Shown: piece after piece, positions 2,772-18,409 of the stretch
Layout of the letters: each line of letters opens with the position of its first letter
How positions within the stretch are numbered: position 1 is the stretch's first letter
IMG/VR virus record: IMGVR_UViG_3300042906_000311
Span: 1 to 22,304 of that record
Direction: 5' to 3' (one strand)
Length of the DNA stretch: 22,304 bases
DNA from: a virus
Position numbers and translations under genes: made by a program
The notes under the pieces: generated by a model
Databases searched by the model: none
Seen by the model: only the letters and a program-made list of their open reading frames with translations
What the model was told of the DNA's origin: nothing

Positions 2772-3488
2772 TCATGCGCACGCGAAAGAGTATCCGTTCG
2801 GGACAGAGAATGTCCACGCAAAGTCGACATACGTCGCGTGGACGATGGTTTCATTCCTGATCGGCTGGCGCACGGCCGTCGCGTTGTTTGGCTTGACGGT
2901 TCCGACGCCGATGACGTTGCCCGCGTCAGTCGGGTTCTCGCAGCCGTTGTAGAGCGTGTACGGCTCGGTGTCGCGCTGCACCCACGAATCCAGTTCGACG
3001 CCCATCGGAAGTCCCGTGTACTTCCATCGCCCGCCGACTAGCGGCTGGCTTCCGGTGATTCGGAACATCCCCGTCTTCGCGCCGACGTTGGAGATAATCA
3101 GAGCGCAGCGTCCGACGTCGACGAAGGACTCAAGCCGTAGAAGCACATGCGCGCCGACCTGATAGTCGGCAGGACCGATCGCGATTGCTGGAACCGTGAA
3201 CGGCGCATTCTGCGTCCCACTTGTCCTCACGCTGTCCGGTGGATCGACTTGCGAGGTTCCGTCCGAGCGCAGGCGTATTTCCTTCCACGCATACCGACGC
3301 TGCGTCGTCTGCCCGGTCGTGACGACCTGTGTGCCCGTGAGGATCGCGTACACGAACTGCGATTCTCGCGGCTCGGTGTACCTTCTCATCGGAACCCCAC
3401 CGCGTTCGATCGCGTCGAACACGCCGTTCATGTGGAACCACTGGAGATTTCCAATGCTTCCTTTGGTGAATCGCGGGAAGTTCGCCAT
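2772..3488 (-). CDS. Putative tail-tip/virion protein, function unknown
   Basis: This 238-aa protein begins MANFPRFTKGSIGNLQWFHM. It contains QFVYAILTGTQVVTTGQTTQ, YAWKEIRLRSDGTSQ, a GRWKYTGLPMGVELDSWVQR segment and the end TVKPNNATAVRQPI...AWTFSVPNGYSFACA. I do not recognise a family and see no catalytic motif; the composition is that of a beta-rich virion component. It starts one base after the previous stop (TGACATG) and stops one base before the next start in the same way, with no ribosome binding site at either junction. Confidence 0.6.
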   Translation of the reverse strand: MANFPRFTKGSIGNLQWFHMNGVFDAIERGGVPMRRYTEPRESQFVYAILTGTQVVTTGQTTQRRYAWKEIRLRSDGTSQVDPPDSVRTSGTQNAPFTVPAIAIGPADYQVGAHVLLRLESFVDVGRCALIISNVGAKTGMFRITGSQPLVGGRWKYTGLPMGVELDSWVQRDTEPYTLYNGCENPTDAGNVIGVGTVKPNNATAVRQPIRNETIVHATYVDFAWTFSVPNGYSFACA

Positions 3489-3853: not shown

Positions 3854-4675
3854 TCAGAAGTTCTCGCTCAGTTGGTTGAAGTCGGCCTGCGTTGGAAACG
3901 GCTGCTTCCAGAACACGCTAGCCGCCTTCTGGAACGGAATCGCTCCGTCGAGGATCACGCGCCCGTCTGGTCCGACTGACGCATACTGGATCAGGTGATA
4001 CCAGTTGTCTTGCGCAAAGGAATGCGTTATCTGAACCTTGTCGATTCCGATCCTGCTCGCCTTCGCTCCCTTGTAGAGCACGCTTCCGACAGCTCCGTTG
4101 CGAAAGACGACGCTGTTTCGCGTTCCGCGCGCAAGCATGATGAGGTTGATTCGCGCGTCGAGCGTGTTCATCAAGACCGTCTCGGTCAACTCCAGCGTCG
4201 TGAAGTACCGAAGAACCGACATCGGTTCGCCAGCAACGTCGATTGATGTTCCGAAGCAGAACGATTCTCCGGTCGCGTCACCCTCCTCCGGGAACACAAG
4301 TCCGGGACTGGTGCGCCATACGTCGCGGAACTCCGCAGCCCAGTCAAAGGAGAACTGGACGTAGCCTGGTTGCGCCGGCTGAAGCGAACCGACCTCGGTG
4401 TTCTCGTACGAAAAGTCGACTTCCCAGACCCCGCGCGAATGCGGCTGTCGCTTGATCGAGTACGAAATGCAGTAGATGTCCGTCTCGTCTGGAAACAGGT
4501 CGCCGACCTGCGGAATGACCGTCGATCCCGCGGTCGTTCCGAACGTGCCGCGCACCTGCGCTGGAGTCGTTAGTTCCGCGGCCTCGTCCCAGATGGCGAA
4601 CCGACGCGATGCCGTTACCTTGCCGGCGCTGTCGGACGCGCCCCTGCTCTCATGTAGTTCGATGGCCGTCGTCAT
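3854..4675 (-). CDS. Putative tail protein (distal-tail region), function unknown
   Basis: This 273-aa protein begins MTTAIELHESRGASDSAGKV. It has RRFAIWDEAAELTTPAQVRG, a GDLFPDET segment near 58-65, YSIKRQPHSRGVWEVDFSYE near 72-91, and a long beta-rich C-terminal half including RNGAVGSVLYKGAKASRIGI. It ends SENF. The strong ribosome binding site (GGAGGG 8 nt before ATG) and TGATG junction with the tape measure point to a structural protein made in quantity. In siphophages the gene after the tape measure is normally the distal tail protein; I see no specific Dit motif, so this remains positional. Confidence 0.65.
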   Translation of the reverse strand: MTTAIELHESRGASDSAGKVTASRRFAIWDEAAELTTPAQVRGTFGTTAGSTVIPQVGDLFPDETDIYCISYSIKRQPHSRGVWEVDFSYENTEVGSLQPAQPGYVQFSFDWAAEFRDVWRTSPGLVFPEEGDATGESFCFGTSIDVAGEPMSVLRYFTTLELTETVLMNTLDARINLIMLARGTRNSVVFRNGAVGSVLYKGAKASRIGIDKVQITHSFAQDNWYHLIQYASVGPDGRVILDGAIPFQKAASVFWKQPFPTQADFNQLSENF

Positions 4676-5766
4676 CAGTTGAACCCTCCGATGCCGTCGC
4701 GGAGCGAGTCGCGAATCTGCTCTATGCCGCGGATCAGCCGGTTGTCGTTCTCAAGCTTCTTCGTCGCCGGGTACGCGTCGAACTTGAACGTTCCCAGCGC
4801 GGTCTGCGCGCTTCCGATCCCTGCGGTCTGCGCGGCGAGCCGCTCCTGCTCAAGCGCGGCGATCTCGATCTTGGCCGCCTCCATGCGCGCGGCGCTCTCC
4901 TTCTCGACCATCGCGAGCCTGTCCTTCTCCTCCTCGGCGATGTTCTGCTTGTGGAGATACAGACGGTACTCGTACTGCTGGCGGATGACCTGCTCCGCGT
5001 CTTCGATGGTCGCGCGCGCCGCGTCCTCCTCCTCGCGTCCGAGGCTTCCGAACAGCGCGGCCTGCATCGCGGGGTCTTCGTAGAGTTCCCTGCGCGCCTT
5101 GGCGACGGCGTCCTCCATCTCCAGACGGAGCGCCTCCTCCTCGTTGCCAGCCTTGCGCGCGGCGTCGACCTGCACCTTGAGGTTGAAGTCGGCGACCTCC
5201 TGATCCCGCTTGATCTGGCGGTTGCGGAGCTGGCCCATCATCTCAAACTCCGCGTCCTGCTTTGCCTTCAGCCGCGCCTGATCCTCCTTCGCCACGGCGG
5301 CCGCTGCGGCCTTGCGCTTGCGCTCGGATTCCTCAAACGCCTTCTCTTCCTGCTCGCGGTCGTAGGCGAATGCGAGGTCGATCCCCCGCTGCATCCGCGC
5401 TTCCAAAGAGCTGATCGTGCCGAACGCTCCGTCCGCGAGGTTCTCTCCGATCGCCTTGCCGAGGTCGTATGCCGCTCCGATGACAGGAAGGTTTCGGACG
5501 AGTTCCTCGACCGCCGCTCCGAGGGTCTTGTCCCCGCGGATTGCCGCGGACATCGACCGCATGACGTTGTCGGCCATGCCGAGGCCAAGCACGCTACCGA
5601 GCATCTTTCCGGCCTTCTGCTCGCTGAACTCGTCGCGCAGCTTGTTGCGCAATAACTCGCCCGTGCTGGTCGCCGTCGCGGCCGCGCTCTGCTTGACAGC
5701 CGTCATCGTGGCGTTGAACTGCGCCATCGACGCCGTCACCGCGATGTTGATCTCTCCTGCGTTCAT
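4675..5766 (-). CDS. Tape measure protein (short)
   Basis: This 363-aa protein begins MNAGEINIAVTASMAQFNAT, the usual tape-measure opening (small residues and a helix built on AQF). A Gly-containing amphipathic region follows (GKMLGSVLGLGMADNVMRSM at 53-72; VIGAAYDLGKAIGENLADG at 95-113). From about 133 to 312 it is a long charged coiled coil with AFEESERKRKAAAAA and EEEKDRLAMVEKESAARME. It ends with GSAQTALGTFKFDAYPAT and a helix. Its position after the frameshifted chaperone and its coupling (ATGA) make the assignment good. Tape measures of siphophages usually exceed 600 aa. At about 0.15 nm per residue this one would specify a tail of roughly 55 nm. GAGAGG precedes ATG. Confidence 0.8.
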   Translation of the reverse strand: MNAGEINIAVTASMAQFNATMTAVKQSAAATATSTGELLRNKLRDEFSEQKAGKMLGSVLGLGMADNVMRSMSAAIRGDKTLGAAVEELVRNLPVIGAAYDLGKAIGENLADGAFGTISSLEARMQRGIDLAFAYDREQEEKAFEESERKRKAAAAAVAKEDQARLKAKQDAEFEMMGQLRNRQIKRDQEVADFNLKVQVDAARKAGNEEEALRLEMEDAVAKARRELYEDPAMQAALFGSLGREEEDAARATIEDAEQVIRQQYEYRLYLHKQNIAEEEKDRLAMVEKESAARMEAAKIEIAALEQERLAAQTAGIGSAQTALGTFKFDAYPATKKLENDNRLIRGIEQIRDSLRDGIGGFN

Positions 5767-6352
5767 CGTGCCCTCTCGACGTGACGTCTCATCCAGTCGT
5801 GTCTATCGGCGGTTCCGTCGCTGCCGTTCGCAGCGAGACGGAGGTGCTCCTCGAACTCGCCGCAGGTCAGGTCGAGCGGGTTGCCGAGTCCGGGCGCGGC
5901 GCGCGCGATCAGGTGCGCCAGCGCCATCCAGTCGCGCGGCGCTTCCGGAAGCGCCGCGCCTACAGAGGGTTTGCCGCCGCGGCGGCCTCCCTGTACCTGT
6001 CGACGTCGACTCCGAGCGCGGCGATCGCGTGCATGGACGCCTCGGAAATCTCGACGGCTGCGAGGAACGCCTCGGCGTCGTCGCAGCACGCCGCGAGGAC
6101 CATCGCGGCACCAGACAGGTTGAAGCAATGGAGGACCAGCGAAGATGCGCGCCGCGCCGCCTCGCGCGCGTCCTGCGCCACCTGCATCGCCTCCCTGTGC
6201 GGCATCCCCACCGCCTTCGCGTCGCGCAGGATTTCCGCGGCCTTGTCCTCCGTCAGCTGCTCCGAAAGCGCGATCCTCTCGCGCACGGTCAGCGGGCGAA
6301 GCGTGAAGGACCGATCACCAGCGTTCACCACCCACGGGGCCACACGGATCAT
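5763..6352 (-). CDS. Tail assembly chaperone, frameshifted long form (gpGT-like), join of 6352..5966 and 5966..5763
   Basis: A -1 slip at heptamer A AAC CCT (5972-5966) re-reads base 5966 and continues in the overlapping frame. This adds 67 residues (beginning SVGAALPEAPRDWMALAHLI and ending HDWMRRHVERAR) to the first 129, giving 196 aa. The extension contains GEFEEHLRLAANG and a C-terminal basic helix. Its stop overlaps the tape measure start exactly as ATGA, as real genes do here. The extension has no convincing start of its own; the best internal ATG (5927) would give 54 aa and has only a poorly spaced GGAAG. In lambda-type phages the long form recruits the tape measure protein while the short form binds it; the same is expected here. 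Confidence 0.82.
5934..5972 (-). promoter_or_regulatory. Programmed -1 ribosomal frameshift signal
   Basis: In zero frame the codons are GCA AAC CCT CTG TAG. A AAC CCT at 5972-5966 fits X XXY YYZ with X=A, Y=C, Z=T. The 6-nt spacer (CTGTAG, 5965-5960) contains the zero-frame stop. The next 26 nt (5959-5934) are a perfect palindrome, with arms GCGCGGCGCTTCC and GGAAGCGCCGCGC. As RNA this makes a stem of about 11 bp with a tight CCGG loop. Slippery site, spacer length and hyperstable stem match canonical -1 signals. Confidence 0.85.
5960..6352 (-). CDS. Tail assembly chaperone, short form (gpG-like)
   Basis: This 130-aa, Ala-rich and largely helical protein starts MIRVAPWVVNAGDRSFTLRP and contains LTVRERIALSEQLTEDKA. 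It lies between the tail tube and tape measure genes, the standard place of the gpG-type chaperone. AAGGAG lies 6 nt before ATG. It ends ...AAAAANPL with TAG at 5962-5960. Immediately before that stop is a slippery heptamer with a hairpin behind it, so this product should be the abundant zero-frame form of a G/GT pair. Confidence 0.85.
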   Translation of the reverse strand: MIRVAPWVVNAGDRSFTLRPLTVRERIALSEQLTEDKAAEILRDAKAVGMPHREAMQVAQDAREAARRASSLVLHCFNLSGAAMVLAACCDDAEAFLAAVEISEASMHAIAALGVDVDRYREAAAAANPL

Positions 6353-6621
6353 CCCTGTCTCCTTCTCTTGAGAAACTCGGCAAAGGAATCGTCAGGCGCG
6401 ACGACGCGCCTGTCGGACACGCGGCGGATCGACCACGAATCGACGTCGGCCATGCGCGCTTGCTCGGCCGCCAGCGCGTAGCCGACCGCCTGCTCCTCCG
6501 TGACGGTCCCCGGCGTGATGCGCCGCGTGCGTACGCGGCCGTCCAAGTAGGTGATGGACACCATCCAGTCCGAATCGGATGGGACAAAGGCATTCGCGAT
6601 CTGTCCTAGATGTGGGATCAT
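6349..6621 (-). CDS. 90-aa protein of unknown function between tail tube and tail chaperone
   Basis: ATG at 6621 follows the tail tube stop by 2 nt without a strong ribosome binding site, and its stop overlaps the chaperone start as ATGA. The product has a beta-like first half (SDWMVSITYLDGRVRTRRIT) and a helical second half (TEEQAVGYALAAEQARMADV), ending in DSFAEFLKRRRQG. I do not recognise the family. The tight fit between two clear tail genes on the same strand supports it being real. A tail assembly role is inferred only from position. Confidence 0.65.
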   Translation of the reverse strand: MIPHLGQIANAFVPSDSDWMVSITYLDGRVRTRRITPGTVTEEQAVGYALAAEQARMADVDSWSIRRVSDRRVVAPDDSFAEFLKRRRQG

Positions 6622-6623
6622 GC

Positions 6624-7049
6624 TCAGACGAGCCAGGTCACGACAGGCGCAGCGCCGTCCGCGTTCGCGAAGTTGCAGGTGACGGTCGAGTCCGCGGTCT
6701 TGTCGACGTTGAACGCGAATCCGTTGAAGATGCAGTTGGCCGCGATGCGCGCGTCGTTCGTCGAGTCGAAGATCGTGAGCGTGAGCGCCTGCGTCGCGGT
6801 GTTCATCCAGATCATCGAGGTGAGCGCGGTCGTGGTCGACGCGGTCGAGTCGACGGCGGGGACGCCGGACAGCGAACCCGTCAGGTCGAGCATTCCGAGC
6901 CGCTTGCGGCGACCAGTGTCGGAGAAGCCAGTCAGCTCGCTCTCGACCCGGGAAAGGTTAGCCGCGAACGACCGCACCCGGAAAACGCTTCCGCTCGCTG
7001 GCATGGTCACGTTGCCGTCGTTTCCGATCACGAATGTGTCAATCGCCAT
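6624..7049 (-). CDS. Major tail tube protein
   Basis: This 141-aa protein begins MAIDTFVIGNDGNVTMPASG. It contains FRVRSFAANLSRVESELTGF at about 23-42, GRRKRLGMLDLTGSLSG at about 46-62, an 'ALTLTIFDSTNDARIAANC' strand block and the end APVVTWLV. The combination of a T-x-G strand, an RRR-type turn and a later 'G.a.f.v....' strand, with position between the terminator and chaperone genes, indicates the repeating subunit of the tail tube. It is small, similar to tube proteins of short non-contractile tails. It has its own 12-nt spacer with AGGAA before ATG, consistent with high expression. Confidence 0.85.
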   Translation of the reverse strand: MAIDTFVIGNDGNVTMPASGSVFRVRSFAANLSRVESELTGFSDTGRRKRLGMLDLTGSLSGVPAVDSTASTTTALTSMIWMNTATQALTLTIFDSTNDARIAANCIFNGFAFNVDKTADSTVTCNFANADGAAPVVTWLV

Positions 7050-9188: not shown

Positions 9189-9405
9189 CGTGTCTCCTTC
9201 CCCTCTTCTTCGGCCTGACGCTCGGCGTGGTGGAATCCACGAACAGCGGCGCAGGCTCGGCCGCGCGCATCGCCAGCCCGCGAGATACGAGCATCTGCGC
9301 GACCGTCTCCGTCGCGCTCACCACCGCGCCCGGGCGAAGCACGCGCCGCCCGACGCTCGGATCGGGCACCGCGCAGTTCTTGAGGACGATCAGAAGTTCT
9401 TGCAT
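9151..9405 (-). CDS. Small phage protein with 'LKNCAV...LRPGAVV...LVSRGLA' pattern
   Basis: This 84-aa protein starts at ATG 9405, with GGGAGG 8 nt upstream. Residues 1-50 (MQELLIVLKNCAVPDPSVGR, then RVLRPGAVVSATETVAQMLV and SRGLA) follow the common small-phage-protein scheme of a 'kN' strand, a 'G.v..v' strand and a helix ending in 'L...G.A'. These proteins usually lie just before the head-tail connector gene and have no established role. The C-terminal third is basic and low-complexity (VRPKKRGRRHDGG). It overlaps the glycosyltransferase end by 16 bp and the connector start by 38 bp, the largest overlap in this window. Confidence 0.7.
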   Translation of the reverse strand: MQELLIVLKNCAVPDPSVGRRVLRPGAVVSATETVAQMLVSRGLAMRAAEPAPLFVDSTTPSVRPKKRGRRHDGGIRDGTHDAS

Positions 9406-10406
9406 TCGGCTGGCCTCCCGTCGTCCTGGTACTTGGTGACGTACTGGTGGATCGTCCGCAGGTCTTCGCCCGGCCACGTCACGATCAACTGAAGATGGCC
9501 GATGCGGACGCGCGGCGTGACGCACAGGCGATTGCCCGACTCGGCGAACCGCTTCCAGAAGTAGATGTCATCGTCGGTCTTCTCGCCCGTCCAGCCACCC
9601 TCCGCGTTCGGGACGCCAAGGAACCAAGGCTTGGCCATCCGTCGCAGCGCGTCGGTGCGGATGAACGTGAGGCCGAAGTGCCCCGTCTCGCATGGGATCA
9701 CCTGCCTGCGGAACTCCGTTGCCTCCACCCGCGTCATCCTCTTCCCGTCGCCGTCGACCATCGACAGAAGGCAGTGCTCGCGGTCGCGGCCGATCTGGAG
9801 CGGGAACAGCGCGTCCACGTCGGGATTCTGCTCCATGATCTGCCACATACGGACGATGTCCTCCGCGTCGAAGATCGAGTCGTAGTCGATCGTCAGGATG
9901 TACTTGCGCTTGTCGTCGGCGCAAATCTGCTCCATCATGCGCTGGAGCACCTGCCCCCAGAACACGCCAACGCCCTTCACGAAGTCGATGCCGAGCTTGG
10001 CGCACGCGAGGTGCGTCGCGCCCATCGTGTCGGTCCACGCGATGCGCGGCATGGACATGAGCGCCTGAACCTCGGTCATCGGTAACTTGGGGATCGGAGT
10101 CTTGACGCGGCGCGCAACGACGCGCAGCCAGTCGCCGTCCTCCCAGCGCGTCCCGTTGACGCCGCCCGCGATCTCCCACCCGGCGAGGCTCAAGACCTTC
10201 GCGAGCTTCTCGCGGTTCCAAATGGAGCGGTACTTGCCGCGCGCGAGGCAGATTTCCTCGACGCTCCCCGTCCCATCCTCGTAAGCCTTGACCGCCGCGT
10301 CGAAGTTCGGCACGTCGAAACGCGCCTCATCTCCATCCACCGACCGCGCCGCCGCGACCTCCTCGCCACTGACGGCCATCGCCAGAATATCGTTCGCATC
10401 CTTCAT
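9390..10406 (-). CDS. Glycosyltransferase-like protein (GT-A fold, GT2-type)
   Basis: The start is ATG 10406 with a strong AGGAGG upstream; the longer frame only adds a basic extension. The product is 338 aa. Residues 1 to about 115 are a variable region. Residues 118-190 look like the nucleotide-sugar domain, with YILTIDYDSIFDAEDIV at 169-185 containing a DxD-type pair (D174, D176) expected to bind a metal and a sugar nucleotide. Further on are GHFGLTFIRTDALRRM at 242-257, an acidic TDDDIYFWKRFAESG at 277-291 that could supply the catalytic base, and a late His in RIGHLQL (H304). The protein is soluble, with no membrane segment. It lies inside the head gene block and overlaps the next gene by 16 bp. 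Acceptor is unknown: a virion protein or a host glycan are both possible. Confidence 0.75.
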   Translation of the reverse strand: MKDANDILAMAVSGEEVAAARSVDGDEARFDVPNFDAAVKAYEDGTGSVEEICLARGKYRSIWNREKLAKVLSLAGWEIAGGVNGTRWEDGDWLRVVARRVKTPIPKLPMTEVQALMSMPRIAWTDTMGATHLACAKLGIDFVKGVGVFWGQVLQRMMEQICADDKRKYILTIDYDSIFDAEDIVRMWQIMEQNPDVDALFPLQIGRDREHCLLSMVDGDGKRMTRVEATEFRRQVIPCETGHFGLTFIRTDALRRMAKPWFLGVPNAEGGWTGEKTDDDIYFWKRFAESGNRLCVTPRVRIGHLQLIVTWPGEDLRTIHQYVTKYQDDGRPAECKNF

Positions 10407-10417
10407 GGGTTCGCCTC

Positions 10418-10436
10418 CTGCCGTATGTATCGGCAG
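10418..10436 (-). promoter_or_regulatory. Small hairpin abutting the glycosyltransferase ribosome binding site
   Basis: On the minus strand CTGCCG, a 7-nt loop (ATACATA) and CGGCAG form a 6-bp stem. Its last two bases are the first two of AGGAGG, the ribosome binding site 8 nt before ATG 10406. If formed, it would crowd that site and could lower translation of the glycosyltransferase. This is a short stem, and regulation is inference. Confidence 0.4.
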
Positions 10437-10446
10437 CAGCAGAATA

Positions 10447-10478
10447 GCGGCCCTGCGCGATCGCGCGCGCAAGGCCGC
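10447..10478 (-). terminator. Strong RNA hairpin after decoration-protein gene
   Basis: Minus-strand arms are GCGGCCTTGCGCG and CGCGCAGGGCCGC with a 6-nt loop (CGCGAT), giving a 13-bp stem with a single G-U wobble. It lies 21 nt after the stop at 10500. A weak TATTCT follows instead of a T-run. As with the hairpin after the capsid gene, the wobble suits minus-strand RNA. It may be an attenuator or an mRNA 3'-end stabiliser that limits read-through to the glycosyltransferase and connector genes. Confidence 0.65.
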
Positions 10479-12462: not shown

Positions 12463-13125
12463 TCAGAGAAAGATGCGGCCCTGTGCGCGAGCGATCTCGC
12501 GACGAACCACCTCGTCAAGGTTGATCGGCGCGCGCTTCGTCGCGGTTGAGGGCACGCTGACGGTCACGACGGTTCGCCGCGGCGCGTCGACGCCGAACCA
12601 CCGCTTCGCGGCGACGGGCGACATGATGCCCTTCTTCACCGCGGTGATGAGGGCGTCGGGATTCGCCTGCAACGGCGCGAGGCTCACCTCAAGCAGCTTC
12701 CAGCGCGAGTACACGGTGTGCACGCGGTCGCCGTACTTGCGTCGATCGGCGTCGATCGCCTTGCGGACGCCGCCGTCCTCGGGGACGTAGCCGACGCTGA
12801 CCGCGTTCACGATGCCTTGGCCGACGAGCGCGGCCGCAACCTCCGGGAAGAACTCTCCGTTGTAGCCGTCAGGCCGCTGCGCGAACGTGAAGTCCCCGAC
12901 GATCGTGGACTCCTTCCGCTTGAGTCCGTTGCATCGGCCCACTGGCTGCGCGTAGTCGTGGTTCCAGAAGAGCGTCGGGTTCTTGTCGAACTCGGTGCTG
13001 TTCATTCCCTGCGGGATCAGCACCTCGCCGTCGCGGTCGAGCGTCTCCGCGGTGATGACCGCGGTGAATCCCCTTGCGGTGCCCTTGAGTTCGGCGGTGA
13101 GCGCCTTGCGCGTGATGGTGTTCAT
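12463..13125 (-). CDS. HK97-family prohead protease
   Basis: This 220-aa protein belongs to the phage prohead protease (U35) type, which cleaves the capsid delta domain and itself during head maturation. Visible hallmarks are FTAVITAETLDRDGEVLIPQ at 20-39, the catalytic His in FWNHDY (H56), the catalytic Ser in VNAVSVGY (S110), and the usual following block KLLEVSLAPLQANPDA at 143-158 with E146. Length is normal. The basic C-terminal tail (about 183-220) is probably removed or scaffold-like, which is inference. It overlaps the portal-MuF stop by ATGA. An 89-nt gap with no clear signal follows before the capsid gene. Confidence 0.95.
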   Translation of the reverse strand: MNTITRKALTAELKGTARGFTAVITAETLDRDGEVLIPQGMNSTEFDKNPTLFWNHDYAQPVGRCNGLKRKESTIVGDFTFAQRPDGYNGEFFPEVAAALVGQGIVNAVSVGYVPEDGGVRKAIDADRRKYGDRVHTVYSRWKLLEVSLAPLQANPDALITAVKKGIMSPVAAKRWFGVDAPRRTVVTVSVPSTATKRAPINLDEVVRREIARAQGRIFL

Positions 13126-16100
13126 TGGATTCCTGCCTCCCTGTTCAGTGCGCGGCGCGTCTCCTCGGCGATCGGAGAAGCCTCGATGTCGCGCGCGATC
13201 TGCTCCATCTCCGCGTCGAACGCTGGCTGCATCGAGCAGCGGCAGTTCGGATGCAGCGGCGGGCCGTTGACATCCTCGTAGTCGAGCAGCATCTCTTTGT
13301 TCTTCCCGTCGTTGTCTGCAACGCCGAACAGGAGATCGCCCTTCTGATAGAACGGCTCATTGAGCGCGATCGGCTTGTCGGCGTATCGCTTCGCGGCCGC
13401 CTCGCAGAACTCGCACGGGTCGGGCGCGAGAAGCCAGGTCTTGCCCGTGACCATGCCCGTCGACTGCCACGCCTCGACCTCGGCGGTGCGCGCCGCGCGC
13501 GCCGCCTCGGTTCGCGCGACCGTGCGCGCGCGGTTCCATGAACCGTCCTGATCCTTCTGGCTTTCCGCCCACGTCTGCACGCGGTCTGCCAGCTGGTCGA
13601 CCGTCTCGCCGTTCTCAAGCCCAGTGCCGAGCACCTCGCGAACCTTGACGCTGGTCGTCTCGGTCACTCCCTGCGCGGTCTGCCGGGCGAGGCGGATCGA
13701 CTCCGTCTCCGCGTACTTCGCGAGGTCTTCGCGCTCAAGGTCGAAGTCGACGTTCGTCGCGACCTTGGCGACGGTGTCGATGCCGATGGTCACGCCAGTC
13801 TGGATGGCCTCGCGCAGGTACGGCGCGAGCGCGTCGACCATCGCGCGCTGGTAGTTCCGCGACCGTAGCAGCCGCTCGGCCTGCGCGATGAGTTCGTCGG
13901 TCGGACGCTCGGACTTCGCGAGCGCATCGAGCAAGTCCTTCATCTGCTTGTCGAACACCTGCGACACGCCGCGGACCATGTCCTCCTCGGACTGGTTGAT
14001 CTTTCGGCCCTCGGACTCTGCGCTCTTGGTCTGTATCCGATCGGATACAGAGCCTTCCCAGAGTGCCTTGTGAGAGACGCGCTTCGACTTGGCGCACCCG
14101 CAGCCGCAGCACTTCTTGCCGCGCTCGCGGTCGAACTCCTCGACCTTGCGCTTGGCCCACGCCCAGCCCTCGTCGCCGCCCCAGCCGTTCCACGCCTGCC
14201 AGCCCTTGCCCTGCTCGTCCCACGTCTCGCCCTGCTTGTCGGATTCGTGGCGCTCGAAGTACGCGACCATGCGGCGGATCGTGTCCTCGCTCAGGTTCTC
14301 GCGGTTCGCGAGGTCGCGCGCGCGCGCGATGCCGACCTCGGTCATGCCTCGCTGCGACTCGGGCTTAGTCTCCCGCACCTCGAGCGCGCGCCGCGCGTTC
14401 GCTGCGACAGTCTCGGGCGGCTTGGTGTCCACGTCCTCGACGGCCTTGCCGATCGCGGCCTCAAGACCCTTGCCCTCCGCGCACATCGAGTACGCGATGG
14501 CGATGGCCTGATCCTGCGGGTAGCCCTCCTCGATCAGCTTCGGAATCTTCGCGCTCACGCAGTCGCCGAGCGCGTCCTTCGACTCGACTGACTTGCCAGC
14601 GATCGTCGGCTCATCGTCCTCCGGCTTGGCGTCGAGCGGGCCGACCAGTCCGTCGATCGACTTGTCCACGCCGTCGTCGGCCGACGCCTGCGCGGGCGCG
14701 ACGGACGCCTGAGCACCGGACGATATCGGATTGAATATGGATGCGATTGTCTCTGCGGAGATGGTCGGGAACGCAGCCGATGCGATGGACACCGCCGAAT
14801 CCTTCGGAAGTTCGCCGAGCTGGATCGACTTCGCCAGATCGACAAGACTTGAAATCTGCGCCCCGTTGAGCGCGGTATCTGCGATTGCCTCTCCGGCGGG
14901 AACTGGCTGTTGTGCAGAAGATGGGCCTGCGACAGGCCGAGCAGGAGCGATCGGAGATGCGATGGGCGTCGGAACGCCACCAATCGGCTGCCCATTGACC
15001 ATGAGTCGATCCGCATTCCTATCGTCGGAAGGCTCAAGACCCTCCTGCTGTCGCGCCTCGTTGGCGGTCAGGATGCCGCCCTGCACATACGAAAGCCGCT
15101 TGCTCGACTCCTGCACCTCGTCGCGCTTGACGGGGTTGTCGTAGGCGAGGAACGCGTCGTCCTCGATGCCGAACAGCGGAAGGAGCGACTGATTGAGCAC
15201 CTCCTCGTCCATGCGGCACGCGGGCAGGATCGTCGTCTCCTTCCACGATGCGAAGCCCACCGTCGCGCTCGCAAGGTTCGGATCGTTCGCGCGCAGCATC
15301 GAGACGGGCACGCCGAAGATCGCGGCGATCTCCTCAACGATCTCCTCGCGGCCCTCCAAGTCCTTCGGCGGGAACGACAGCGGCTTCAGGTCGACGTCAC
15401 CAGTCACGGCGAGGAACTTGCCAGTGCGCTGCGTGCCGCGGACCTTGTTCTCCACCTCCGCGGTGAACCTGTCGAGTTCGGCCTCGCTCGCGTTGCCCTT
15501 GATGACGGCGAGGTAGTCGGGACGGCTCTTGTTCTTGAAGAAGAAGTAGTCCATCTCGTGCAGCGCCTCGTTGGAGGTCACCGCACCCCACGCAGCCTCG
15601 ACCTTGCCGAGGCCGTAGTACATATCGCGCGGGTTCGGGTACTTGAAGTGGATCACCTCGTCAGGCGCGAAGTCGACCTTCTGCGGGTCGGTCGGCCCGT
15701 ATCGGTAGCCCTTGATGAACGGCTCTCCGCGCGCGCCTTCGCCCGGCACGATCTCCGTCCACTGGCTAGGCATCGTCCACAGTTCGGCAGGCACGCCGAG
15801 ACGGCGGTCGATCACCGGGTGGACATAGGCGTTGCCAGTGAGTTCAAGGTAAAGCACGCGCAGGACGGTCGCGTCGAAGCCGTTCTGGTAGGGGTTGACC
15901 CGCGCGAGAAGGTCGAGCAGCGGGTGCCTGTCGGTGACGGCTTCGTAGTCGTCGCCGAACTCCGCGGCCTTCGACATCGCGAACCGCGATGGGAGCTGCG
16001 CGAGGTCGCCGGACAGATACGCCTTCGTTCGGCGATCCGTCCTGCGCGTGTTCCAGAGCTTCGCGCCAGCGCCGCGCGACCTGACGTACAGACGAAGCGG

Positions 16101-16307
16101 CTGCGACGCGACGGCGATCGCGTTCAGCCGAGCCGCGGCATAGACCCAAGACGAGCAGTAGCGCACCGCCGCCTGATGGCTGAAGTCGGGACGCTTCACG
16201 TCCCGGCCGAGGAAGGTCATTCCGCTCGCGCTGGTGAACTTCGGCGGCACGTCGTCGGTGAACGCCGCCTTGGTGAATGCCGCCTTGAGTCGTTGGATCA
16301 GCGTCAT
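13122..16307 (-). CDS. Portal protein fused to MuF/SPP1-gp7-type minor head protein
   Basis: The start is set at ATG 16307 (ATGA overlap with TerL); the upstream in-frame extension is an Arg-rich shadow. The product is 1061 aa. Residues 1-445 are an HK97-type portal (VRYCSSWVYAAARLNAIA at 48-65; FGVPVSMLRAND at 331-342; GILTANEARQQEGLEP at 411-426). Residues 446-570 are an Ala/Pro-rich linker with a helical part (NGAQISSLVDLAKSIQLGEL). At 583-609 is a module with VSAKIPKLIEEGYPQDQA and a flanking Cys pair (C583, C609). At 654-721 is GMTEVGIARARDLANRENLS...GWAWAKRK. A Cys cluster, CCGCGC, lies at 733-738. Residues 770-1030 are MuF-like, with C965xxC968 and HPNCRC at 1019-1024. The portal forms the DNA entry ring; MuF-type proteins are minor capsid proteins, often internal. 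No stop or frameshift separates the two. Confidence 0.92.
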   Translation of the reverse strand: MTLIQRLKAAFTKAAFTDDVPPKFTSASGMTFLGRDVKRPDFSHQAAVRYCSSWVYAAARLNAIAVASQPLRLYVRSRGAGAKLWNTRRTDRRTKAYLSGDLAQLPSRFAMSKAAEFGDDYEAVTDRHPLLDLLARVNPYQNGFDATVLRVLYLELTGNAYVHPVIDRRLGVPAELWTMPSQWTEIVPGEGARGEPFIKGYRYGPTDPQKVDFAPDEVIHFKYPNPRDMYYGLGKVEAAWGAVTSNEALHEMDYFFFKNKSRPDYLAVIKGNASEAELDRFTAEVENKVRGTQRTGKFLAVTGDVDLKPLSFPPKDLEGREEIVEEIAAIFGVPVSMLRANDPNLASATVGFASWKETTILPACRMDEEVLNQSLLPLFGIEDDAFLAYDNPVKRDEVQESSKRLSYVQGGILTANEARQQEGLEPSDDRNADRLMVNGQPIGGVPTPIASPIAPARPVAGPSSAQQPVPAGEAIADTALNGAQISSLVDLAKSIQLGELPKDSAVSIASAAFPTISAETIASIFNPISSGAQASVAPAQASADDGVDKSIDGLVGPLDAKPEDDEPTIAGKSVESKDALGDCVSAKIPKLIEEGYPQDQAIAIAYSMCAEGKGLEAAIGKAVEDVDTKPPETVAANARRALEVRETKPESQRGMTEVGIARARDLANRENLSEDTIRRMVAYFERHESDKQGETWDEQGKGWQAWNGWGGDEGWAWAKRKVEEFDRERGKKCCGCGCAKSKRVSHKALWEGSVSDRIQTKSAESEGRKINQSEEDMVRGVSQVFDKQMKDLLDALAKSERPTDELIAQAERLLRSRNYQRAMVDALAPYLREAIQTGVTIGIDTVAKVATNVDFDLEREDLAKYAETESIRLARQTAQGVTETTSVKVREVLGTGLENGETVDQLADRVQTWAESQKDQDGSWNRARTVARTEAARAARTAEVEAWQSTGMVTGKTWLLAPDPCEFCEAAAKRYADKPIALNEPFYQKGDLLFGVADNDGKNKEMLLDYEDVNGPPLHPNCRCSMQPAFDAEMEQIARDIEASPIAEETRRALNREAGIQ

Positions 16308-17482
16308 ATGGCTCTCGTCAGGAACGGCTTCCGCGCGCGCCTTGCGTGGACGGCGAGCGCGAGCGCGCACACGCCGTCATCGTGTCCCGCCGTCGCCTCG
16401 TACGAGACGTGCTTCCCCGAGTATCGGTATCCGAAGCCCTCCAGTTCCGAGCGCAGCCACCCGTCTGGGAACCGAATCTCCATCGTCTGCACCGCGATCT
16501 GAAGCCCTTCCATCAGCTGTTGCTTGCTCTGCGAAGTGAATTTGAAGCCATCGACGCGACGGCAGACGCGCTTCAGGTCCTCCACGATCGGGTCGCCGAC
16601 GCCCGTCGAGTCGATCTGCGCGGGCGCGTCCTTGATGATCTTGGCGAGCTTCTCGCGCGTGAGCGCCCACGGTCCCTGCCATCGGTCGAGCATCGCGACC
16701 GCGCCGTCCGCGTCGAGTCCGACGATGACCGTGAAGTCCTGGCTCTTCGCGAGGTCGACGCCGTAGACCTCGGCGGGTCGCGTCGAGAGCGGCCCGATGC
16801 ACTGGCGCAGCGCGTCGAGTCCGAAAGGATTGCCGCCGTCCTCGGCGGGCACTCCCTCGTACTCCTGCGCGAAGACCTCCGGCGGCAGCGACCGCCGCGC
16901 CGCCTCGACTTCGTCCGGGTCAATGTGCGGGTTTTGGCGCGTTCCGATGCGAAAGGCACGCATCGTGCCAGTCGTGTCACCTTCCGCCTCAGTGAACAGG
17001 CGGTGGAAGTCGCCCGTCCCCTTCGGCGTGCCGAGGAAGAGCGCACTGCCCTTGCGGTCGGCGAGGGTCGGCCGCGCCGCGTTGCGCCACCATTCGAGGA
17101 GGTGCGGCACGAACCCTGCCTCGTCCACCACGATCAGGTCGTAGTCTCGGCCACGTCCGGCGTCCACGTCCTCAAGCGACCAGAAGTCGATGACGCCGCC
17201 TGTCTTGACTTCGATCCGCTTCTCGACGCGATCCATGCGCGCGGTCACGGGCGCGAGCGCGCGCTCGATGTCGCGCATGGGGTCGGCGAGGTACTTGTAG
17301 GTCGGCGCGAACCAGCCGACCTTGCGTCGGTTGATGGCGGCGCGCTGCGCCTTGACCTTGCCGTAGGTGGTCTTGCCCCAGCGGCGTCCGATCTCAAGGA
17401 CGCTGAACCGAGCGAGCGCCGCATCGACCGTCAACTGCGACGGATGCAGGATCGAGGACAGCGGCTTGAGTTGCACCCTCAT
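16304..17482 (-). CDS. terL: Terminase large subunit (DNA-packaging ATPase/nuclease)
   Basis: This 392-aa protein is the motor that pumps DNA into the prohead and cuts it. A Walker A variant, GRRWGKTT, is at residues 32-39. Walker B LIVVDE is at 116-121, with D120 and catalytic E121. A coupling motif, FLGTPKG, is at 149-155. The RNase-H-like nuclease domain follows, with candidate metal ligands D243 (YGVDLAKSQDFT), D291 (IDSTGVGD) and D368/D369 (GHDDGVCALALA). All expected motifs are present, so it looks functional, although it is on the short side for the family. ATG overlaps the small-subunit stop (ATGA) and its own stop overlaps the portal start (ATGA), so packaging and portal genes are translationally coupled. 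Confidence 0.95.
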   Translation of the reverse strand: MRVQLKPLSSILHPSQLTVDAALARFSVLEIGRRWGKTTYGKVKAQRAAINRRKVGWFAPTYKYLADPMRDIERALAPVTARMDRVEKRIEVKTGGVIDFWSLEDVDAGRGRDYDLIVVDEAGFVPHLLEWWRNAARPTLADRKGSALFLGTPKGTGDFHRLFTEAEGDTTGTMRAFRIGTRQNPHIDPDEVEAARRSLPPEVFAQEYEGVPAEDGGNPFGLDALRQCIGPLSTRPAEVYGVDLAKSQDFTVIVGLDADGAVAMLDRWQGPWALTREKLAKIIKDAPAQIDSTGVGDPIVEDLKRVCRRVDGFKFTSQSKQQLMEGLQIAVQTMEIRFPDGWLRSELEGFGYRYSGKHVSYEATAGHDDGVCALALAVHARRARKPFLTRAI

Positions 17483-17838
17483 GCGTCATGCTGCACCTTC
17501 GGCGGCAGTTCCTCGATGGTGATGACCTCCTCGCGGACAACGGCGTCGGTCTTGTCGCGCTGGCCGAGGTACTGCTTGCCGAGCCAGATCAGGAGCGGGA
17601 CGCTGCCGTTCATGGCAAGGTCGACCTGCCTCCCGCGCAATTGCTCCGCGAGTCGGTTTCTGCCACGGGCGACCTCTGCGGAAAAATTATCGCTGACCGT
17701 ATCTCGGTTCACGCCAAGAATCCCTGCAATTTCCTCGATGGTGCAGCCGCGTGCGGCAAGTTCCTCGACCGAATTTTTCCGCAATTCGGCCTTCGGTCTG
17801 CCACGCTTTCTCGGCTCAGGCTTCCGTCGTCTTGCCAT
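17479..17838 (-). CDS. terS: Terminase small subunit (putative)
   Basis: The chosen start is ATG at 17838 because AGGAG sits 8 nt upstream; an earlier ATG at 17877 would overlap the methyltransferase by 62 bp and only add a basic extension. The product is 119 aa. Residues 1-20 are very basic (MARRRKPEPRKRGRPKAELR). Residues 23-52 form a helix-turn-helix (VEELAARGCTIEEIAGILGV). The SVPLLIWLGKQYLGQRDK segment at 79-96 is typical of small proteins directly ahead of a phage large terminase. The role would be recognising phage DNA and loading the large subunit onto it. It overlaps TerL by ATGA. Identity rests on position, size and the HTH, since small terminases are poorly conserved. Confidence 0.75.
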   Translation of the reverse strand: MARRRKPEPRKRGRPKAELRKNSVEELAARGCTIEEIAGILGVNRDTVSDNFSAEVARGRNRLAEQLRGRQVDLAMNGSVPLLIWLGKQYLGQRDKTDAVVREEVITIEELPPKVQHDA

Positions 17839-18409
17839 TGATCTGGCTCCTGATCTGTGCCGCGACTTCGGCGGCAAGGTGCGCTGGCGTCAGCCCGCCG
17901 TCCACCCACCAGTCCTCGAACGGACGAAGCTCGCCGTCGATTGCCACGCACACGTCCGGCGCGACCAGTTCGTACCCGGCGTCGCGTAGGATTCCACGCA
18001 TGGCCGACCTGATCGCGGCGTTGCCCCGGTACAGGTCGTGCTCGACCGTGATGCAGTCGAACCGCACCGCGTCGAGTGGGAGTTTGCACAGCGCCTGTAG
18101 CGTCAGGCTGGGCGGCTCAAGGTCGAGCGACAGGTATCCGATGCGCCCGTCCTTCGCGAAGTCGTGGATGATCGCCCTCCAGTCCTGCGCGAAGAAGTCT
18201 CCGTAGACCGCGTGCGCCTTGCGCCCGGCGCGGAGCGCGTCGGCGTGCTCGATGTCGCAGAGGATGCCGCTCCACCCGGCGTCCTCAAGCGCCTTCGTAT
18301 TGCTGATGCTGACAGGCTCACCAGCGCCGATGTCGAGGTACGTCTTCCTCCGCGCGACCATGAGCGCGAAGGCGTCCTGTCCCGCCTGACTGTTCGATGT
18401 GATTCGCAT
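17816..18409 (-). CDS. FkbM-like SAM-dependent methyltransferase
   Basis: This 197-aa protein has a Rossmann methyltransferase motif I at residues 24-30 (YLDIGAG), an acidic residue after the second strand (D52 in GILCDIE), YLSLDLEPP at 92-100 and FDCITVEHDLY at 117-127. This order (Y-DIGA, then L-LD-E, then the ITVEH block) is that of the FkbM / Methyltransf_21 family, which typically O-methylates sugars or small molecules. At 197 aa it is close to a minimal catalytic domain. A ribosome binding site (GAAGGA) lies 8 nt before ATG. It overlaps the terminase small subunit start by 23 bp, so it is co-transcribed with packaging and structural genes. The substrate is unknown; modification of a virion or host glycan is a guess based on context. 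Confidence 0.8.
   Translation of the reverse strand: MRITSNSQAGQDAFALMVARRKTYLDIGAGEPVSISNTKALEDAGWSGILCDIEHADALRAGRKAHAVYGDFFAQDWRAIIHDFAKDGRIGYLSLDLEPPSLTLQALCKLPLDAVRFDCITVEHDLYRGNAAIRSAMRGILRDAGYELVAPDVCVAIDGELRPFEDWWVDGGLTPAHLAAEVAAQIRSQINGKTTEA

Follow-up and report, generated by a model that had tools for sequence, protein, structure and literature searches.

The DNA analysed here, referred to as the window, is a 22,304-base IMG/VR virus record whose structural genes lie on the minus strand, as do all of its features described below. Two overlapping open reading frames (ORFs) are placed between the genes for the major tail protein and the tape measure protein, both neighbours being called by synteny with a relative, L025. 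The first ORF (5960..6352) encodes a G-like, zero-frame candidate tail assembly chaperone of 130 aa (MIRVAPWVV...AAAANPL*), homologous to the first ORF of 95 distinct cassettes, and its 3' end reads GCC GCC GCG GCG GCA AAC CCT CTG TAG. A putative slippery heptamer, A_AAC_CCT (5966..5972), stands in frame with this ORF and is followed by the 6-nt spacer CTGTAG (5960..5965), which includes the zero-frame stop (TAG, 5962..5960), and then by a candidate stimulatory hairpin (5934..5959) that is here a perfect 26-nt palindrome, GCGCGGCGCTTCCGGAAGCGCCGCGC. The −1 frame extension, or T-like domain (5763..5972), begins with the peptide KPSVGAALPEAPRDWMALAHLIARAAPGLGNPLDL... and runs for 67 residues beyond the shared proline (...SVGAALPEAPRDW...RRHVERAR*), giving a predicted fusion of 129 + 67 = 196 aa. 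These elements had been reported in a preliminary description, which left the strand unstated, and all are found at the positions given there; the same is true of the overlap between the −1 frame stop (TGA, 5765..5763) and the tape-measure start (ATG, 5766..5764), which together form ATGA.

Such a combination is hardly expected by chance. In-frame X_XXY_YYZ motifs occur four times in the ~6,425 codons of the window genes, a density that predicts ~0.004 such motifs within the six final codons of any one gene, and palindromes with 13-nt arms appeared in none of 300 dinucleotide shuffles of the window. Folded alone as RNA, the 26-nt element forms an 11-bp stem with a 4-nt loop at −21.7 kcal/mol. 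In its 91-nt context, the fold is no better than that of shuffled sequences (z = −0.3), and in the minimum-energy prediction the 5' arm is paired with bases lying upstream; the case for the hairpin therefore leans on relatives over the single-sequence fold.

The neighbouring genes were assigned by position. The tape measure protein candidate (4675..5766) has 363 aa, and the syntenic L025 protein matches tape measure PHROGs; this length is very short and implies a short tail if the protein is the sole tape measure. The major tail (tube) protein candidate (6624..7049) has 141 aa, its syntenic counterpart in L025 matching phrog_10528 major tail protein, and between tube and chaperone lies a 90-aa ORF (6349..6621) that is syntenic in relatives. 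In the window itself, the chaperone, the T domain and the tape measure gave no significant Pfam or PHROGs match. One member of the zero-frame protein alignment (A1) weakly matches phrog_344 'tail assembly chaperone' (E = 0.0089), and the positional counterpart in L027, which is not detectably homologous to A1, matches the same profile at 2e-22. An AlphaFold model of the chaperone reached a pLDDT of 88.9; Foldseek searches with it returned no match at E <= 0.001 in PDB or BFVD, and several weak BFVD matches are named tail assembly chaperones. The protein is designated a putative tail-assembly chaperone on the grounds of its position, the frameshift anatomy and its syntenic relatives. Elsewhere in the window, a single 1082-aa ORF (13122..16370) joins a phage portal (PF04860) with a Mu F-like minor head protein (PF04233), and two ORFs within the structural region (9390..10472 and 17816..18409), neither with a Pfam match at E <= 0.01, resemble, on visual inspection, a glycosyltransferase-type protein and an FkbM-like methyltransferase.

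Viral contigs and bacterial genomes were searched with two alignments, one for the zero-frame protein (A1) and one for the −1 domain (A2), and 95 distinct G+T cassettes were recovered by protein, or 97 by DNA. Without exception (95/95 by protein, 97/97 by DNA), the T domain lies in the −1 frame relative to G, and an in-frame X_XXY_YYZ heptamer stands close to the end of the first ORF in 92 of the 95, in most cases 10 or 13 nt from where the stop codon ends. Taking the heptamer closest to the stop, the word is GGGAAAC in 68 cassettes, GGGAAAA in 14, GGGAAAT and GGGAAAG in three each, and AAACCCT in four, while three have none; GGGAAAN thus accounts for 88 of the 95. A search with the chaperone matched only close relatives, at 98–100%, and the gene that follows the tape measure matches relatives at 68, 50 and ~31%, the gene order there being the same. 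Among cultured phages, tblastn against 50,697 phage records gave no match to the chaperone or the T domain.

It is most probable (about 0.92), judging from sequence comparison, that the locus is a programmed −1 frameshift of the lambda G/GT type in a tail-assembly chaperone gene, with two products made from one mRNA. Under this reading, the majority of ribosomes would terminate at the TAG and yield the 130-aa G-like protein, and a minority would be delayed by the hairpin 6 nt downstream, whereupon the tRNAs on AAC (P site) and CCU (A site) would slip back by one base onto AAA and CCC. The shifted ribosomes would read 67 more codons and release a GT-like fusion ending at the tape-measure start, which, by analogy with lambda gpG/gpGT, would link the tape measure with the tube subunit during tail assembly. 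The preliminary description had already likened the arrangement to lambda G/GT, and the comparison with relatives that it suggested as a check upholds the likeness, with the −1 relation constant, the heptamer position kept and a hairpin kept 5–8 nt beyond it.

The AAACCCT cassettes deserve separate consideration. Seven loci (L001–L007) are near-identical to the window, and a further one, L178, lies on a Proteobacteria MAG contig (RGZB01000077.1) and shares 59% identity with the window in G and 70% in T. The heptamer is identical in all of these, at the same 13 nt from the end of the stop. The L178 site reads AGA AAC CCT CAG TAG GCGCGGG-CGCTCCAGAGTT-CCCGCGC, so that the heptamer, the spacer length (CAGTAG in place of CTGTAG) and the outer stem are kept and the palindrome is lost. 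L178 retains AAACCCTC-GTAG-GCGCGG, as against 3 of 15 matching bases from 20 nt upstream of the heptamer; the longest identity run shared by the two is not significant when tested against shuffles (3635/5000), and conservation of the heptamer is therefore argued from its position and this contrast with the upstream flank. A collection-wide search for AAACCCTCNGTAGGCGCGG found 11 stretches, seven of which belong to the window clade; the other four are chance matches in unrelated DNA that carries no chaperone or T domain. A maximum-likelihood tree places the window and L178 as weakly supported sisters (89/45), with L020 joining them (100/97) and then L123 (100/91), which uses GGGAAAT. Since GGGAAAN is the usual word in the family around them, the simplest account is that AAACCCT arose from it. 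A Shine-Dalgarno-like sequence at stimulatory distance is present in all 4 AAACCCT cassettes, which represent only two independent lineages, versus 15 of the 68 with GGGAAAC; in the window it is AGGGAGG (5986..5992; AAGGAGG in L003/L004), upstream of the slip site and inside the stimulatory range of 6–17 nt (PMC4066793), and its possible role as a stimulator is no more than suggested.

L020, from the same clade, bears on which tRNA matters. Its site (3105-3126, with a copy in L034) reads GTC CCT CAA GCG GCGCGG-TGAGGCGTGAGACG-CCGCGC: the CCT, the spacer length and the outer stem are kept as in the window, AAA and the early stop are lost, and no X_XXY_YYZ remains, just C_CCT; a GTG overlaps its TGA stop. 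It may be asked, accordingly, if the shift is real and depends on the proline tRNA alone, as a single-tRNA slip on C_CCU in which AAA is dispensable. Besides the retention in L020 of CCCTC, the 6-nt spacer and the GCGCGG/CCGCGC stem in front of a codon pair, GTC CCT, that offers no XXX, this variant of the frameshift reading is favoured by the L020 post-slip peptide PSSGA, which matches PSVGA of the window, and by the behaviour of C_CCU in Escherichia coli, where it is shift-prone alone with a strong stimulator and belongs to the six tetramers that exceed background fourfold or more (PMC4066793). Against it, AAA has been retained with CCCT in the window clade and in L178 despite diverged codons just upstream, and the best heptamer of the same E. 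coli survey exceeds the best tetramer about tenfold (PMC4066793). For the window itself, a proline-only slip is accordingly rated unlikely. Slip-site turnover from G_GGA_AAN through A_AAC_CCU (window, L178) to bare C_CCU (L020), meaning that re-pairing of tRNA-Pro alone can sustain a natural shift, is put forward tentatively, as an idea with somewhat less than an even chance of being right.

That the downstream frame is translated as protein is supported by its pattern of change. Between the window and relatives that are not near-identical, the T domain, at 56–70% identity, is more conserved than the G domain, at 31–59%. Differences between the window and L178 fall at the three codon positions of the −1 frame as 18/15/31, third positions being enriched, and 21 of the changes are synonymous in the −1 frame versus 2 and 3 in the other frames. 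In addition, 24 columns of the T domain are invariant across eight relatives, and the −1 frame is under amino-acid constraint. A rival reading makes the −1 domain a separate gene, started at the ATG at 5927..5925 or at another internal codon and translationally coupled to the first-ORF stop, and the preliminary description had named a start at 5927 as the alternative that could overturn the frameshift. An ATG is indeed present there, and the three relatives without a heptamer (L020, L025 and L026) have a −1-frame GTG that overlaps the TGA stop (GTGA). The ATG at 5927, however, has no Shine-Dalgarno-like sequence and is missing in L178 and L020, for which reasons it is rejected as the start; moreover, L178 has no ATG, GTG or TTG between the slip site and the core, and a start in this region with a Shine-Dalgarno-like sequence is found in 3 of 95 relatives with any codon and in 1 of 95 with ATG. 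A product from 5927 would further miss the conserved PRDW and the PSVGA linker, and a separate start leaves the position-conserved heptamer and hairpin unexplained. A separate gene is thus very improbable for the window, and for L020, L025 and L026 reinitiation may occur, since the GTG overlaps the stop. Two of these loci, L025 (2964-3401) and L026 (2776-3213), are distant relatives with a −1-frame T domain, no slip heptamer and the GTGA stop/start overlap.

Downstream RNA structure is a common stimulator of −1 frameshifting, though not a required one. Hairpins were sought 3–10 nt past the heptamer in 41 non-redundant loci, a stem being counted as significant when better than 95% of shuffles. 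Significant stems occur right after the heptamer in 27 of the 41 loci, versus 0, 3, 4 and 7 at four control sites displaced from it by 70 or 140 nt. Among the 27 stems, 24 distinct 5'-arm sequences are represented, and 24 of the 27 begin 5–7 nt after the heptamer. This covariation, in which the stem sequence varies and pairing is kept, is as an RNA stimulator predicts. Sharma et al. (PMC4066793) allow a stimulator spacing of 4–10 nt, and the 6-nt spacer of the window falls within the 5–8 nt range of its family only if AAACCCT is the slip site. The palindromic stimulator proposed in the preliminary description is therefore retained in part: the hairpin is kept in relatives, and the palindrome itself is not conserved, a single C-to-A change in L003–L007 breaking one pair of the stem and L178 having a 7-bp hairpin with an asymmetric 12-nt loop. 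For the same reason, an intermolecular duplex is not needed, and the palindrome as a functional feature was discarded. These observations also weigh on the proposal, hardly credible in our estimation, that the palindrome is a DNA element such as an operator or terminator, or an RNA dimerisation site, and that the heptamer is coincidental. The proposal draws on the near-zero expected frequency of a perfect 26-nt palindrome; it is opposed by the hairpin being kept where the palindrome is broken or lost, by relatives that carry hairpins of widely differing loop length at the same place, and by the lack of a T run after the palindrome. A terminator was considered for this site and set aside, none being called there. 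Finally, the notion that the two ORFs, overlapping in different frames, are one gene broken by sequencing error or an indel is refuted by the identical frame break in all 95 distinct relatives, which come from many assemblies.

The frameshift reading adds a family of ~95 environmental tail chaperones that share a well-conserved frameshift cassette and are unmatched by Pfam or PHROGs profiles. The novelty is modest: one clade appears to have swapped GGGAAAN for a slip site that uses a proline codon, and in the sister L020 just C_CCT and the hairpin are retained. Because the type of slip site changed within the family and the spacer and hairpin were kept, natural homologues could serve to test the rules by which bacterial slip sites are chosen, which come mostly from plasmid constructs. 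In annotation, both ORFs should be merged into a single GT product.

Among known systems, lambda G/GT (PMC5009743) is alike in its place between the tube and tape measure genes, in a −1 shift shortly before the first ORF ends, in a T extension that ends at the tape measure gene and in the low level of fusion expected; in the lambda model, gpG attaches to the tape measure and the T part to the tube protein (PMC5009743). Unlike lambda, the window cassette has an A_AAC_CCT slip site and a strong simple hairpin, and it differs from profiled chaperone families in showing no detectable sequence similarity to them, save for the weak phrog_344 match of one relative. The G_GGA_AAN shifts of tail chaperones, known from phages and from the archaeal viruses HCTV-1 and HCTV-5 (PMC5009743) and seen in the 88 GGGAAAN relatives, concern the same gene pair, and in those relatives the stop distance and hairpin spacing are as in the window, whereas the window clade and L178 use A_AAC_CCT.

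The slip motif itself has precedents. All 64 heptamers and 16 tetramers, A_AAC_CCU and C_CCU among them, have been tested in E. coli (PMC4066793); with the IS3 pseudoknot as stimulator, only A_AAC_CCA, G_GGC_CCA and C_CCG_GGC stayed below the twofold threshold, so that A_AAC_CCU, by exclusion, passed it. In that survey, CCN codons were on average weaker slippers than AAN/UUN, and G_GGA_AAC is given as low-efficiency (PMC4066793). Those tests employed plasmid constructs, whereas here the motif stands in a natural gene family. According to PRFect, all four nucleotides occur at each heptamer position among phage tail chaperones, and second triplets other than A/U are thus not unprecedented (PMC10274946). 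The same heptamer, AAACCCU, has been predicted in an insect toti-like virus (PMC7150801), likewise near the first-ORF stop, with downstream structure and in the −1 direction; that case, a prediction only, differs in concerning a eukaryotic dsRNA virus and another gene pair. Set beside these systems, the frameshift arrangement of the window is ordinary for phages and its AAACCCT slip word is rare.
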